A stretch of 49,879 bases of DNA from an uncultured Acidobacteriia bacterium. GTDB lineage: Bacteria; Acidobacteriota; Terriglobia; Bryobacterales; Bryobacteraceae. The notes under the pieces are model-generated. The model searched no databases, was not told the DNA's origin, and was given only the letters and a program-made list of their open reading frames with translations. The translations under genes and the position numbers were made by a program. Location of the stretch: the NCBI GenBank assembly GCA_903929755.1, contig CAIYVZ010000144.1:1-49879 (forward strand), in the 5' to 3' direction. The first letter of the stretch is position 1; each line of letters begins with the position of its first letter. Shown in pieces: positions 2,149-48,246 of this stretch.

Positions 2149-3477
2149 ATGGCGGGCATGAATACGCTGAACCAGTTATCGCTACCTCAGGCCTCGCGCC
2201 GCGATTTCTTCCGGGGCACTGCGGTTACCACCGCGCTGCTCGCCGGGGCTCCCGCCCTGCTGCGAGGGACTCCCGCCGGGGAGGCGATCAAGGTAGGTCT
2301 GGTGGGGTGCGGGGGACGCGGCACGGGCGCGGCGAATCAGGCGATGAATGCCGATGATTACTCGATGCTGTGGGCGGTAGCGGATGTGGCGACGGAGAAG
2401 ATTGACGCCTGTCTGGATACTTTGCGGAAGCAGCAGGGTGATAAGGCCGGGGCGAAGGTGGTGGTGGATAAGTCGCGGCAGTTTACGGGACTGGATGCGT
2501 TTGAAAAGCTGCTGCAGAGTGGTGTGGACGTGGTGCTGCTGGCGACACCTCCGGGGTTCCGGCCGGGGCATTTGCGGGCTTGTATCGAAGCCGGAAAGCA
2601 TGTGTTCTGCGAGAAGCCGGTGGCAACGGATGCGCCCGGGATCCGGCACGTGCTGGAGTCGGTAAAGATGGCGAAGCAGAAGAACCTGAATCTGGTGGCG
2701 GGGTTCTGCTGGCGGTATGCGAACCACATAGTGGATACGTTCGACCAGATCCACAACAAGAACGCGATCGGCGACATTATGGCGTACTACGCGACTTATT
2801 ACACGAGTCCGGTGAAGCCGATGCCGCCGGCTTCGACGCGACCGGCGGGGATCAGCGATATTGAGTGGCAGGTGCGGAACTGGTACAACTTCTCGTGGCT
2901 GTGCGGGGATAGTTTGGTGGAGCAGGCGGTCCACAGTGTGGACAAGGTGGCGTGGGCGATGAAGGATCAGGCGCCGGTTAGCTGCGTGGGTGTGGGGGGA
3001 CGTCAGATTCCGGCCGAGGGTGGGAATATCTATGACCACTTCGAAGTGAATTATCTGTATCCGAATGGCGTGCGGGCGTTTGTGGCGAACAGGCAGAGCG
3101 AGGGTTGCTACAACGAGAACTCGGATTACATTCTGGGCACGCAGGGTGTCTGCACAATTGGGCGGGGGCCGAATCCGCGCATCACGGGCAAGACAACGTG
3201 GAGCTTTGAAGGCCAGAAGTATGACATGTACCAGAAGGAGCATGACGACCTTTTTGCGGCGCTGCGGAAGGGCAAGGTCATCAATGACGGGGAGCGCCTG
3301 GCGACGAGTACGATGCTGGCGATTATGGGCCGGATGGCGGCGTATACAGGGCAGCAGATCACGTGGGATCAGGCTTTGAATTCGCAGGAGAGTTTGGCAC
3401 CGCCTTCGCCGATTGACTGGAATGGCAGCTTTAAACCGGCTTCGACGCCGTTGCCTGGGATTACTAAGTTCCTGTGA
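2149..3477 (+). CDS. Gfo/Idh/MocA-family oxidoreductase, Tat-exported
   Basis: A 442-residue NAD(P)-dependent oxidoreductase. A twin-arginine motif ASRRDFFRG and a hydrophobic stretch occupy residues about 15-40. The Rossmann motif VGLVGCGGRGTGAANQ follows, then the family signature EAGKHVFCEKPVATD, where the Lys of EKP is the usual catalytic residue. The C-terminal alpha/beta domain has HSVDKVAWAM with a likely catalytic His. The start at 2149 lies 12 bases after GAGAGG. A second ATG at 2158 is possible. It is divergent from the isomerase-like gene, and its last codons overlap the next gene (GTGA), so those two are translationally coupled. It is probably periplasmic sugar metabolism, substrate unknown. 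Confidence 0.88.
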   Translation: MAGMNTLNQLSLPQASRRDFFRGTAVTTALLAGAPALLRGTPAGEAIKVGLVGCGGRGTGAANQAMNADDYSMLWAVADVATEKIDACLDTLRKQQGDKAGAKVVVDKSRQFTGLDAFEKLLQSGVDVVLLATPPGFRPGHLRACIEAGKHVFCEKPVATDAPGIRHVLESVKMAKQKNLNLVAGFCWRYANHIVDTFDQIHNKNAIGDIMAYYATYYTSPVKPMPPASTRPAGISDIEWQVRNWYNFSWLCGDSLVEQAVHSVDKVAWAMKDQAPVSCVGVGGRQIPAEGGNIYDHFEVNYLYPNGVRAFVANRQSEGCYNENSDYILGTQGVCTIGRGPNPRITGKTTWSFEGQKYDMYQKEHDDLFAALRKGKVINDGERLATSTMLAIMGRMAAYTGQQITWDQALNSQESLAPPSPIDWNGSFKPASTPLPGITKFL

Positions 3478-44999: not shown

Positions 45000-45323
45000 A
45001 TGTCGTTTAGGTGGACGTATATGTAAGGTATCATTTTGCGCGCCTCAAAGCGTGGGCGATAGTGAGTCTGCCTGCGTGACAACCGGCCTGAATCAACTCG
45101 CCAAAGGTGCCGGGCGCTCTGGGAATCTTTTCGAAGATCAGGGCCTCCAAATGAACTTTGCCAAGGCCTTTCGCTCCGGAGAATATACGAGGGCTGCCAA
45201 CAGGCTGTCAGGGTGTGCCCCCCCGGTAGACTATGTTTAGCGCATTCCATCTGCGCCACTCCAGGCTAATTGTGCCAGGCGGGGACAAGTTCTCGTTCAG
45301 CACGAATTCACTTCATTCAATAA
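45000..45323. other. Intergenic region between the minus-strand operon and the exosortase locus
   Basis: A 324-base gap between divergent operons. It must hold both promoters, but none stands out. A plus-strand frame ends at 45240 with MNFAKAFRSGEYTRAANRLS; it may be a gene fragment but I recognise nothing in it. No palindrome or terminator is evident. Confidence 0.4.
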
Positions 45324-45800
45324 ATGCGCTCTACATGGATCTTTATTTTTCGATTCCTCACAGCCAGCCTGGTTCAGTTTGCGCTGCTCTTGTTCCCTTT
45401 GAGGCCTTCTGCAGAGAAGTTCACTGTCGGCCTTGCGGCGGTCTCCACCTGGCTCATTCAGCTGTGTGGAGGGGCGGTTATTCGGCAAGGCGCAATTTTG
45501 AGTGCCCCGACTCACGGCTTTGCCATGGAGATCCTAAACGGCTGTAATGGCGTCAACGTCGTCGTCTTGCTGTGCGCGGCCATCATCGCCTACCCCGCAA
45601 AATGGAAATGGCGCCTGATTGGCCTGGCCGGTGGAATCGCAGCCGTTCAAGGTGTCAATTTCGTTCGCCTCATTTCGCTCTTCTACCTTGGCCAACATAA
45701 TAAGCCGCTATTCGACTTTGCACATTTATACCTGTGGGAAACGCTGATCCTCCTGGACGCGGTCGTGGTCTTGGGATGGTGGAGTCGGCGCGCAACATGA
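45324..45800 (+). CDS. xrtH: Exosortase H (integral-membrane cysteine transpeptidase-like)
   Basis: A 158-residue, mostly hydrophobic protein with about four to five membrane helices. The exosortase catalytic residues are visible in order: Cys74 in MEILNGCNGVNVV, Arg115 in GVNFVRLISLFYLG and His134 in FDFAHLYLWETL. Exosortases recognise C-terminal sorting tripartite signals in exported proteins. The short XrtH type pairs with IPTL-like signals. Here the candidate substrate is in the same operon. The ATG at 45324 follows a weak leader. Its stop overlaps the next start (ATGA). Confidence 0.85.
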   Translation: MRSTWIFIFRFLTASLVQFALLLFPLRPSAEKFTVGLAAVSTWLIQLCGGAVIRQGAILSAPTHGFAMEILNGCNGVNVVVLLCAAIIAYPAKWKWRLIGLAGGIAAVQGVNFVRLISLFYLGQHNKPLFDFAHLYLWETLILLDAVVVLGWWSRRAT

Positions 45801-46450
45801 AGCACTCAGGGCTTGCAAAGGAACTCCAGCCAGGGCCGAATCTGATACTCACGGCCGTCGCGTCCGTCATCGTCTCTCTTGGCATCTGGTGGTTCCTGCT
45901 CAAGGGCATATCGATCTGGTTCCTGCAGCGGATTGCCTACGTGCCCTTAGTGCTGTTAATTGGAGCAAGTGGCGCACCTCCCCTGGAACTAAATCCTCAA
46001 ACGGGAGGATGGGACTTTCACGTGAGGATGAATTACGATACGACGAATCCGCAGACAGGAAAGCCAATCCACATCGATTCCGTCGATTTTACGGCCGACC
46101 CCAAACTGGCCGATGCGTTTACCGGAGGACTATTTACTTATGCCGGACTTGCTCTCGCCGCTGGTGCGTACTCAAAAGCACAATGGCGGCGGATTTTGCG
46201 AGGCTTTGGCCTGCAGCTCGCGCTCAGCGTTCTTGCCATTGCACTCTTCGCCTACACAAAGGCGTTGGCGATCGTTGTGAATGGACACACGGGGTCAACC
46301 GCGGTATTGTCTGCCGTCAGCCTTTGCGAATACCTCATCACCCTCGTCGTCCCCTACGCAAGCCCGTTCGCAGTGGTATTTATGGTCCTCCCCCAGTGGA
46401 AAAACTACTTCGCCTTCCATGTGGCCCGGACGAACAAATTGCACCGCTGA
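45797..46450 (+). CDS. Exosortase H-associated membrane protein
   Basis: A 217-residue protein with an N-terminal helix (LILTAVASVIVSLGIWWFLL), an extracytoplasmic segment of about 60 residues (GWDFHVRMNYDTTNPQTGK), and about three more helices towards the C-terminus. I recognise it by context as the membrane partner that accompanies XrtH. It overlaps the exosortase gene by 4 bases. No catalytic motif is visible. It may help to present or anchor the substrate. Confidence 0.7.
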   Translation: MKHSGLAKELQPGPNLILTAVASVIVSLGIWWFLLKGISIWFLQRIAYVPLVLLIGASGAPPLELNPQTGGWDFHVRMNYDTTNPQTGKPIHIDSVDFTADPKLADAFTGGLFTYAGLALAAGAYSKAQWRRILRGFGLQLALSVLAIALFAYTKALAIVVNGHTGSTAVLSAVSLCEYLITLVVPYASPFAVVFMVLPQWKNYFAFHVARTNKLHR

Positions 46451-46580
46451 GGAAGAGTTTCGTGGGGAAGGTTATTGCGCAAAATTACGTGCTATTCTCA
46501 CTCAAGGGTTTCCCCCCCGCATCCAATGCTGGATGTTGCTCGCGGCAAACGTACCGGGCCCGGAAAGATCAACTGAAAAA

Positions 46581-47096
46581 ATGAAACGCATCACCTTGTT
46601 GTTCGCTGCCCTATTGGCATTTTCGAGTTCAGCCTGGGCGTTCGTCACCACGAACATTACCGTTAGCTACGGATTAGTGAGCGGCACGCCCACGCTCAGT
46701 GACACCATGCTGATAGCCCTCGCTGTTTTGCTGCCGATTGTGGCGATCCGGGTGATGCGGAAAAAACAGGGCTCATTGCTGATGATGATGGTCCTGATGC
46801 TGGGAGTTTCGGCATTTGAAGTCTTTACGGGTATTCCCCTGATTGTCAAATCTTTTGCTGGTGGCGGGATTGCTTTGGTAGCGGGCACCACTTCTTACAC
46901 CTATAACTCAGTATCAAACGGCAGCACGATAAGTGTCTACAATAACACCGGTAGTCCTCAGACCATTAATGGCCTGTCCAACACGCAGGGCTGGAATTTT
47001 GTCGCACCTACTGGGAAAGGTCAGATACAGTGTCAGATCGGAACGCCAGTCGCAAACGCTACTTCTTGCTATATCAAGGTAGTAGCGCCTGCCTAG
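46581..47096 (+). CDS. Exosortase substrate with internal sorting signal (midcut-by-XrtH type)
   Basis: A 171-residue protein. Residues 1-20 form a signal peptide (LLAFSSSAWA). At residues 36-62 is TPTLSDTMLIALAVLLPIVA followed by IRVMRKK, an IPTL-like signal (motif, hydrophobic helix, basic cluster). In ordinary substrates it ends the protein, but here more than 100 residues follow: a second hydrophobic stretch (65-103) and a Thr/Asn/Ser-rich region with cysteines at 151 and 163. Cleavage by XrtH at the motif would free a very short N-terminal piece, or leave the C-terminal part in the membrane. This layout matches the midcut-by-XrtH family as I remember it. Start at ATG 46581. Confidence 0.75.
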   Translation: MKRITLLFAALLAFSSSAWAFVTTNITVSYGLVSGTPTLSDTMLIALAVLLPIVAIRVMRKKQGSLLMMMVLMLGVSAFEVFTGIPLIVKSFAGGGIALVAGTTSYTYNSVSNGSTISVYNNTGSPQTINGLSNTQGWNFVAPTGKGQIQCQIGTPVANATSCYIKVVAPA

Positions 47097-47933
47097 ATGC
47101 AGCTGGAACTACAGCGCGAACTGCCACCGTATGCACCGCAACTCGCGCTGATCTGCCTGTTTGGCAGCGTAGCCCTCATTTTGCTGTGGGAGTCTTTCCT
47201 TGCCCGCCGGGAGATTCCCGGGGTACCCCTGATTCGCTGGGTGAGCAATCTTTCACTGGCCATTCTCAATCAATGGGTATCTTTGAATGTTTTACCCATT
47301 CTCGCCGGACACCTGACAAGAGCGGACTGGGGAAGCCATCAGGGCGTGCTGCAACAGATTCACGCGGGCTTCTGGAGTTCCTGGGCCATCACAATCGTCT
47401 GCCTGGAATTCCTGGGCTACTGTTGGCACCGGTTATCGCACGCACTGCCCTGGCTGTGGCGTATCCACGCGGTCCATCACAGCGACGTAAATGTGGACGC
47501 CACCACGGCACTCCGGCATCATCCCCTGGAAACAGTGCTAACCGCGCTGGTCAATGCGCCCGTAATCTTTTTCCTGGGACCGAGTGTAACCGTTCTATTT
47601 GCATCCAGTCTCTTGTTTTTTTCCCTGGACGCCTTCAGTCATGGCAACCTTCGACCCGGCAAACTCGACCGATGGTTGAAATACGTCATCGTCACGCCCG
47701 GCTTCCATTGCGTTCACCACAGCGCAGAGGTGCAGTACACGAACAGCAATTTTTCTAACTTTTTCCCGTGGTTCGATCATATTCTGGGAACGGCCCGAAT
47801 GTGGACACCCGAGGAACAGGCCACGAAATCCCTGGGGCTGGAATATTTCCGAAACAAACGCGCAGCCTGGCTCGATCATGTACTGCTTGAGCCGTTTATT
47901 CCCAATCGATGGCGCAAGCCTGCAGCTGGCTGA
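47097..47933 (+). CDS. Sterol desaturase/fatty acid hydroxylase superfamily protein
   Basis: A 278-residue membrane di-iron enzyme. Four or so helices carry the His clusters: HRLSH (HxxxH) in YCWHRLSHALPWLWR, HAVHH in RIHAVHHSDVNVD, the HH in LRHHPLE, and HCVHH in FHCVHHSAEVQYTNSNF. The family hydroxylates or desaturates lipids and sterols. The gene starts at the base after the stop of the exosortase substrate, so it belongs to the same operon. It may modify the lipid to which the sorted protein is attached, which is inference. Confidence 0.85.
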   Translation: MQLELQRELPPYAPQLALICLFGSVALILLWESFLARREIPGVPLIRWVSNLSLAILNQWVSLNVLPILAGHLTRADWGSHQGVLQQIHAGFWSSWAITIVCLEFLGYCWHRLSHALPWLWRIHAVHHSDVNVDATTALRHHPLETVLTALVNAPVIFFLGPSVTVLFASSLLFFSLDAFSHGNLRPGKLDRWLKYVIVTPGFHCVHHSAEVQYTNSNFSNFFPWFDHILGTARMWTPEEQATKSLGLEYFRNKRAAWLDHVLLEPFIPNRWRKPAAG

Positions 47934-48003
47934 GTAGCTTGCTGATCTGTTTTCAAACCGCTTCCTGCGGCCGAACAGACCGCAAGAAGCGTGATTACCG
48001 GAA

Positions 48004-48246
48004 TTGCGTCACCCTCTCGGTGACGCTTACGCCGCTCAATCGCTCGACCTTGCCCGGGTCCGTCTCGGAACCGGCCTCGCCACTACGGTGGATGTGCAGG
48101 TCGCCCAGGCGAGCGTCGCAGCAGCCGACGATACCTCTATCCGAAGCCGCTTCGCCGTCTCACTCGCTAACACTCGCCTCGCCTGGGCCACCGGAGACGT
48201 GCGCAAACCTGGCAACAGCAGTAAACTAATTCGTGATGCTCACTGA
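48004..48246 (+). pseudogene. Fragment of a TolC-family outer-membrane efflux protein
   Basis: The frame reads DLARVRLGTGLATTVDVQVA, then QASVAAADDTSIRSRFAVSL and ANTRLAWATGDV, the coiled-coil repeat pattern (RxxxGxATxxDVxxAQ) near the C-terminus of TolC-like proteins. No start codon fits and no N-terminal half is nearby. Only about 65 residues of a normally 450-residue protein remain. Its end overlaps the next gene. A 21-base hairpin (GCGTCACC/GGTGACGC, 48006-48026) sits at its left edge. Confidence 0.6.

Follow-up and report, generated by a model that had tools for sequence, protein, structure and literature searches.

A midcut precursor of exosortase H beside an OlsE-like hydroxylase gene: a candidate exosortase pathway for minimal substrates

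A 49,879-nucleotide stretch of DNA from an uncultured Acidobacteriia bacterium (contig CAIYVZ010000144.1; the whole stretch is called the window below) carries a cassette of four genes for exosortase H (XrtH), its membrane partner, a precursor of the midcut-by-XrtH family and an OlsE-like enzyme of the FA_hydroxylase superfamily (Table 1). Comparison with other loci shows that predicted hydroxylases of this subfamily recur beside putative minimal substrates of XrtH (midcut and IP types) and of the VPEID and PEP types. The link of the hydroxylase follows the small substrate, not XrtH as such. These sequence patterns point, with a probability of about 0.5, to an exosortase pathway that serves minimal substrates and has an OlsE-like lipid hydroxylase of its own. 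The membership of the hydroxylase in the exosortase pathway is in itself quite probable.

The first gene product scores 127.9 bits against TIGR04177 in a model scan (cut-off 86), which places it in the exosortase H family. Its Cys74, Arg115 and His134, presumably the catalytic residues, are invariant in a ten-sequence alignment. The ATG of the partner gene overlaps the XrtH stop codon (ATGA). An NCBIfam scan of the partner gave no match, and tblastn detected its relatives in seven of the nine XrtH loci of the window's family. The fourth gene product matches PF04116 at 97.9 bits (cut-off 31), as a member of the FA_hydroxylase superfamily, and has the histidine clusters HRLSH, HAVHH and HCVHH at residues 111, 124 and 204; its ATG begins at the base right after the TAG of the midcut gene (TAGATG). 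The best NCBIfam model for all six hydroxylases scanned is OlsE (NF052566), at 60–90 bits against a cut-off of 475 (59.7 bits for the window hydroxylase), and by that model a true OlsE is ruled out. No solved structures were found for the hydroxylase. The initial annotation of this DNA had named the three exosortase residues, an ATGA-coupled membrane partner and a histidine-cluster, sterol-desaturase-like gene starting at the base after the substrate stop, all of which are confirmed. Because the curated-model scores lie over their cut-offs, it is very unlikely that the gene identities are due to chance.

The third gene product scores 57.7 bits against NF033207 (midcut_by_XrtH; cut-off 45) in the model scan and is a member of that family; with the TIGR04177 score, this bears out the proposed identities of XrtH and of the midcut protein. 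The signal peptide, delimited by eye, covers about residues 1–20, ends in AWA and is followed by T36-P37-T38-L39. The sorting signal and its helix occupy residues 36–62 (TPTLSDT, 36–42; RVMRKK, 57–62), just as the initial annotation had read them, and a second helix and then a C-terminal part follow. An AlphaFold model of the midcut alone, of low confidence (predicted local distance difference test score, 49) and used for helix positions only, has helices at residues 39–61 and 65–83 and strands at 104–168. A longer mechanical open reading frame (46281–47096) is the same precursor extended upstream. Against IPTL-CTERM (TIGR04174; cut-off 20.5), the precursor reaches 16.5 bits in hmmscan and 21.6 bits with its neighbours in the genome search, and the signal lies at residues 37–61 of 171 and not at the very C terminus. 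The midcut is the sole match over the IPTL-CTERM cut-off in the window genome, which has one copy of XrtH; the locus is an XrtH cassette with the midcut precursor as its only detected substrate. By eye, seven of the nine loci of the family have, next to XrtH, an ordinary protein whose C terminus is of the IPTL type; the midcut and the hydroxylase take its place in the window. The nearest named XrtH relatives come mostly from metagenome-assembled genomes of Bryobacterales or other Acidobacteriota, in keeping with the Acidobacteriota named in the initial annotation. A search of plasmid records with XrtH gave no match, and a search of solved structures gave only one chance-level match (E 0.1). 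Elsewhere in the window genome, positions 697–1575 of locus L034 encode a protein with a PEP-CTERM-like end (PIPEPTAMALMG...), and because of this end a second exosortase system is likely to be present.

Midcuts over the cut-off were found in ten genomes, namely that of the window, G504, G812, G822, G923, G962, G938, G890, G1011 and G1012. The class sample yielded two among 399 genomes (window and G504), the genomes of XrtH loci two among 50 (G812 and G822; 50 of the 80 named loci were taken) and the order sample five among 151 (G822, G923, G962, G938 and G890). At most eight candidates per genome were scored in the class sample and at most 21 in the order sample, and midcuts may be missed in these counts. 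G1011 and G1012 came to light in a search that used only the hydroxylase alignment (39 genomes; about 255 bits), and in both the hydroxylase follows a midcut; the remaining matches of this hydroxylase-only search, G962's own excepted, reached 119 bits or less. Altogether, a hydroxylase lies directly downstream of the midcut in five of the ten genomes (window, G812, G962, G1011 and G1012), which belong to two phyla. The gap is 0 bp in the window and 27–76 bp in the other four, and G812 has two tandem midcuts followed by the hydroxylase. The identity to the window hydroxylase is 51% in G812 and 37% in G962. Because G1011 and G1012 are near copies of each other, the independent cases number about four.

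The next two matches of the hydroxylase-only search, a second copy in G962 and one in G1009, follow precursors of 66–77 amino acids. These consist of a signal peptide, about 18 residues, IPAISQAG, a helix and a basic end, with nothing after the signal, and their matches to NF033207 and IPTL-CTERM are weak and stay below the cut-offs. Such minimal precursors (minis), composed of a signal peptide, a few to about 20 residues and an exosortase signal of the IP, VPEID or PEP type, occur within 300 bases of 11 of the 124 distinct hydroxylases. In the control over all loci, minis adjoin 25 of 1537 genes, a figure raised by exosortase-centred loci, by open reading frames inside exosortase genes and by repeated hydroxylase loci. 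In the control over hydroxylase-centred loci they adjoin nine of 213 genes, seven of these being repeat counts of those minis from the gene on their other side; the contrast is 11/124 versus 2/213 (p 4.5e-4) with those seven rows dropped and 11/124 versus 9/213 with them kept in. Among ten minis scanned, three (L228, L234 and L245) score 22.1, 27.1 and 27.4 bits against PEP-CTERM (TIGR02595; cut-off 16), and VPEID-CTERM is the best model for six. Exosortase E (XrtE), a VPEID-type mini and a hydroxylase stand together in L434, L435 and L438, with XrtE over the cut-off in L434 and L438 and a partial match of 98 bits in L435. In L239 the hydroxylase overlaps the XrtE gene (TIGR04162, 204 bits) by four bases, and L223/L441 has two tandem VPEIG minis detected by the looser scan only. 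VPEID-type precursors of 52–58 amino acids also lie beside exosortase-like genes in L105, L106, L108, L116, L118 and L122, two of them in tandem in L105; exosortase E is confirmed by model in L105 and L106 only.

The association is concentrated in one part of the hydroxylase tree, which contains 119 hydroxylases including the hydroxylase-only finds; an earlier 35-row tree was biased to midcut and XrtH-locus finds. The five midcut-linked hydroxylases form one clade with a support of 99 in the Shimodaira–Hasegawa-like approximate likelihood-ratio test (SH-aLRT), inside a 17-row node. In all 119 rows, the 300 bases on either side were scanned identically for XrtH, XrtE, midcuts and minis, five of the rows having fewer than 300 bases on one side. 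Linked rows make up 14 of 17 in the window's clade versus three of 102 elsewhere (p 7e-13), the clade having been picked after the labels were known and its node having an SH-aLRT of 89. With a looser sorting-motif scan added, the counts become 15/17 versus 9/102 (p 4e-11). This looser scan brought in six extra rows, of which L227 looks spurious and L251, L326, L328, L329 and L360 lie next to PEP-type ends that seem to belong to larger proteins. The latter five and L248, all beside PEP-CTERM-like ends, belong to one nine-row FA_hydroxylase group outside the window's clade. Because these six rows share one group, there may be a second hydroxylase group associated with PEP-CTERM proteins of full size. 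In several of the same genomes (e.g. G702, G543 and G770), further FA_hydroxylases are unlinked.

This pattern bears on two explanations in which the hydroxylase has no part in the exosortase pathway. In the first, the adjacency would be a genomic coincidence or the hitch-hiking of a horizontally acquired cassette. The G+C content is 0.52–0.55 across the four genes versus about 0.59–0.62 on both flanks in the composition profile, and XrtH over the cut-off is absent from all 11 class-sample genomes of the same genus. Because of these two observations the four-gene cassette was probably acquired as one unit, and both, along with the rarity of the hydroxylase gene at XrtH loci, would suit hitch-hiking. 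However, the pairing recurs in two phyla, including finds of the hydroxylase-only search, and follows a hydroxylase clade, so that mere coincidence or hitch-hiking is highly improbable. In the second, the hydroxylase would remodel bulk membrane lipids in the manner of OlsE, sharing its operon with the exosortase through a common stress response without acting on the exosortase product. OlsE is the best curated match, and a review describes it as hydroxylating ornithine lipid [PMC11631085]. Because the pairing involves three kinds of sorting signal and falls mostly in one clade, while other FA_hydroxylases of the same genomes are unlinked, it is more specific than a shared stress response predicts, and bulk-lipid remodelling is unlikely.

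From the side of XrtH, the hydroxylase is seldom seen. XrtH is over the cut-off in 46 of 396 genomes of the Acidobacteriota phylum sample, and 49 XrtH-bearing genomes were examined out of 61 with any XrtH match, 12 weak ones being left out. A PF04116 gene is present in 20 of the 49; within 40 kb on the XrtH contig it was found in none of the 48 XrtH-bearing Acidobacteriota genomes besides the window's, the contigs being draft and some of them short. Outside the window genome, 33 of 40 hydroxylase positions from XrtH-bearing genomes were retrieved for comparison. No hydroxylase lies near XrtH in the nine loci of the window's XrtH family, and one (L215) does so among the best 80 of 232 XrtH loci, some of which overlap the nine. 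On L215, a gammaproteobacterial metagenome-assembled contig, the hydroxylase at 1719–2398 is in two frames with its middle part missing, and XrtH lies at 2822–3274; this is either an interrupted gene or an assembly error. Among all loci surveyed, the order XrtH, partner, midcut, hydroxylase was encountered only in the window. The initial annotation had proposed a search for this order in XrtH neighbourhoods across Acidobacteriota; that survey being nearly empty, the check taken literally would therefore nearly have dismissed the link, a verdict that the searches centred on midcuts and on the hydroxylase turned round. Of the hydroxylase link that it had drawn, the part that holds is the recurrence beside midcuts in G812, G962, G1011 and G1012, and the part that does not is the tie to XrtH (0/9, 1/80 and 0/48), the substrate being the partner that the hydroxylase follows.

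XrtH itself is present in all ten midcut genomes, that is, in the window's and in nine of nine further ones, three of the ten being the starting case (window) or reached through XrtH (G812 and G822). The relation between midcut and XrtH put forward at the outset is upheld to this extent, and the NCBIfam name of NF033207 itself asserts the link. In the class sample, where XrtH occurs in nine of 399 genomes, the co-occurrence has a p of 4.5e-4 with the window counted. As a weak and suggestive test, the genome co-occurrence agrees with a substrate role of the midcut.

Several findings, beside the choice of the clade after the fact, weigh against the proposed pathway. Only G504 is independent of the window in the class-sample co-occurrence, and among the other XrtH genomes (8/398) the p is 0.02. 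In the order sample (80 genomes), XrtH occurs in seven of seven genomes (six midcut genomes and G1009, without G822) versus 49 of 71 counted as midcut-negative because they are not among the midcut matches (p 0.09). In five of the ten midcut genomes no hydroxylase is seen next to the midcut: G504, where 16 kb are available, and G822 lack it there; in G923 the nearest hydroxylase is of a remote branch and about 2.1 kb away, separated from the midcut by genes on the opposite strand; and contig ends hide the hydroxylase side at G938 and G890. Most XrtH loci have no hydroxylase in the available flanks, nor do the six loci L105, L106, L108, L116, L118 and L122 with VPEID-type precursors. Because of these two groups of loci, the hydroxylase is an accessory. 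Linked rows also occur outside the clade (L306, L314 and L356), L389 and L390 inside it are unlinked, and the VPEID-type minis score 18–29 bits against VPEID-CTERM (TIGR04161), under its cut-off of 33.

Five full-length rows of the midcut alignment have two C-terminal cysteines, one of which is invariant in all six rows. Weak NF033207 matches, at profile positions of about 110–174, fall in large proteins, and because one of these has HYDIN/ASH domains, which are Ig domains, an Ig-like fold of the C-terminal domain is possible. Midcuts of a long form, 854, 352 and at least 396 amino acids in length and with C-terminal extensions of other kinds, are encoded in L283 (5902–8466), L299 (4306–5364) and L301 (2–1189), the last with FG-GAP repeats; no hydroxylase directly adjoining these three was seen in the available flanks. 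A long-form midcut and XrtH also occur in the cultured environmental bacterium Pseudomarimonas arenosa, where no hydroxylase adjoins the midcut.

A mechanism can be proposed for the window. Signal peptidase would remove residues 1–20, and XrtH would then attack near T36-P37-T38-L39 to form an acyl-enzyme with a short N-terminal segment of about 18 residues. By analogy with archaeosortase A, this segment would be handed to an acceptor in the membrane, in the simplest case a lipid with an amine group, and the hydroxylase would modify the acceptor lipid or the lipidated product; we put forward this lipid-acceptor chemistry tentatively. The C-terminal part would stay in the membrane as a protein of two helices and a domain facing outward, which is perhaps Ig-like. 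The odds that the functional product is the short segment are slightly less than even. This is suggested because nothing but the signal peptide, the short segment and the signal is common to midcuts and minis, and related hydroxylases adjoin both. Alternatively, the C-terminal remnant could be the product, the two-helix protein with its outward domain becoming a mature subunit or regulator of the hydroxylase. The compact midcuts do retain the C-terminal part, with its invariant cysteine, weak NF033207 matches over this region fall in large proteins, and the gap between midcut and hydroxylase is only 0 to 76 bases. On the other hand, minis stand beside related hydroxylases without any C-terminal part, and the long-form midcuts of G822 and G923, with other extensions, have no adjacent hydroxylase, so that a remnant as product appears rather unlikely. 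A bolder form of the short-segment proposal is about as doubtful: exosortases would make a new class of short ribosomal lipopeptides, with a core of roughly 5–20 residues, between signal peptide and sorting signal, cut at both ends and joined to a membrane lipid, the lipid part being tailored by a dedicated di-iron hydroxylase, and the midcut would be a version whose leftover half has been retained for another function.

The contig ends 1.9 kb past the hydroxylase, which limits the view of downstream genes. Just 3' of the hydroxylase, the frame 48004–48246 looks by eye like the C-terminal portion of a TolC-like efflux protein of the outer membrane, with no Pfam match, and is possibly a remnant at the cassette border.

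Table 1 Features of the exosortase H cassette in the window
Feature	Position	Strand	Basis
Exosortase H (XrtH), 158 amino acids	45324..45800	+	TIGR04177 match; Cys74, Arg115, His134
XrtH-associated membrane partner, 217 amino acids	45797..46450	+	Coordinates; relatives in XrtH loci of the same family
Midcut-by-XrtH precursor, 171 amino acids	46581..47096	+	NF033207 match; motif positions
Predicted short segment, residues 21–39, between the putative signal peptidase and XrtH cuts	46641..46697	+	Putative, by eye
OlsE-like FA_hydroxylase-superfamily enzyme, 278 amino acids	47097..47933	+	PF04116; zero-base gap to midcut
G+C dip coinciding with the four genes	45200..47999	.	Composition profile

The proposed pathway has likenesses to several known systems. 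Like the XrtH/IPTL-CTERM system (TIGR04177, TIGR04174), the window has the same exosortase, the Cys, Arg and His residues and the membrane partner; unlike it, its substrate has an internal signal, is the sole IPTL match over the cut-off in the genome and has a lipid hydroxylase after it. As a midcut-by-XrtH protein (NF033207), the window substrate scores over the cut-off, whereas the hydroxylase partnership and the minimal relatives are absent from the model name and from the literature searched. The exosortase E/VPEID-CTERM system (TIGR04162, TIGR04161) likewise pairs its exosortase with very small precursors that bear one signal, and a hydroxylase of the neighbouring clade accompanies some of them, but its exosortase is another one, fused to a CPBP-type protease, it has no midcut, and in L434, L435 and L438 the hydroxylase is on the opposite strand, unlike in the window. 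OlsE is of the same superfamily and differs in that the scores stay far below its cut-off.

The closest precedent for lipid enzymes near a sortase-like enzyme is archaeosortase A (ArtA) with PssA and PssD in Haloferax and Methanosarcina. Archaeosortase A is reported to anchor larger proteins to lipid, and lipid genes next to artA in Methanosarcina led to enzymes that ArtA-dependent lipid anchoring requires in Haloferax, where attachment of lipid to the S-layer glycoprotein depends on PssA and cleavage of another substrate on both PssA and PssD [PMC7157517]. That system differs from the window in its lipid enzymes, its large surface proteins and its archaeal lipids [PMC7157517]. In the available part of the review that covers OlsE, exosortase appears only in a cited title that ties N-acyl amino acid synthases to PEP-CTERM/exosortase [PMC11631085]. 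The open-access literature searched contained no account pairing an exosortase with a midcut, a sterol desaturase or a fatty acid hydroxylase, and no PEP-CTERM appeared among the matches listed for PEP-CTERM with sterol desaturase or fatty acid hydroxylase; in the portions of this literature available, IPTL-CTERM is mentioned and VPEID-CTERM was not found. As far as the open-access literature goes, the gene families are already named, and the association of the hydroxylase with the substrate, and its breadth, are apparently undescribed.

To our knowledge, the acceptor used by bacterial exosortases has not been established. The recurrence of a lipid-modifying enzyme beside the smallest substrates of exosortases, of the XrtH, VPEID and PEP types, points at a lipid acceptor. 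Such very small substrates would give products readable by mass spectrometry, which makes the acceptor question directly testable. The association also offers a first functional handle on midcuts and on precursors made up almost wholly of a signal peptide and a sorting signal. The recurrent pairing of hydroxylase and small substrate thus suggests an undescribed protein- or peptide-lipid pathway.

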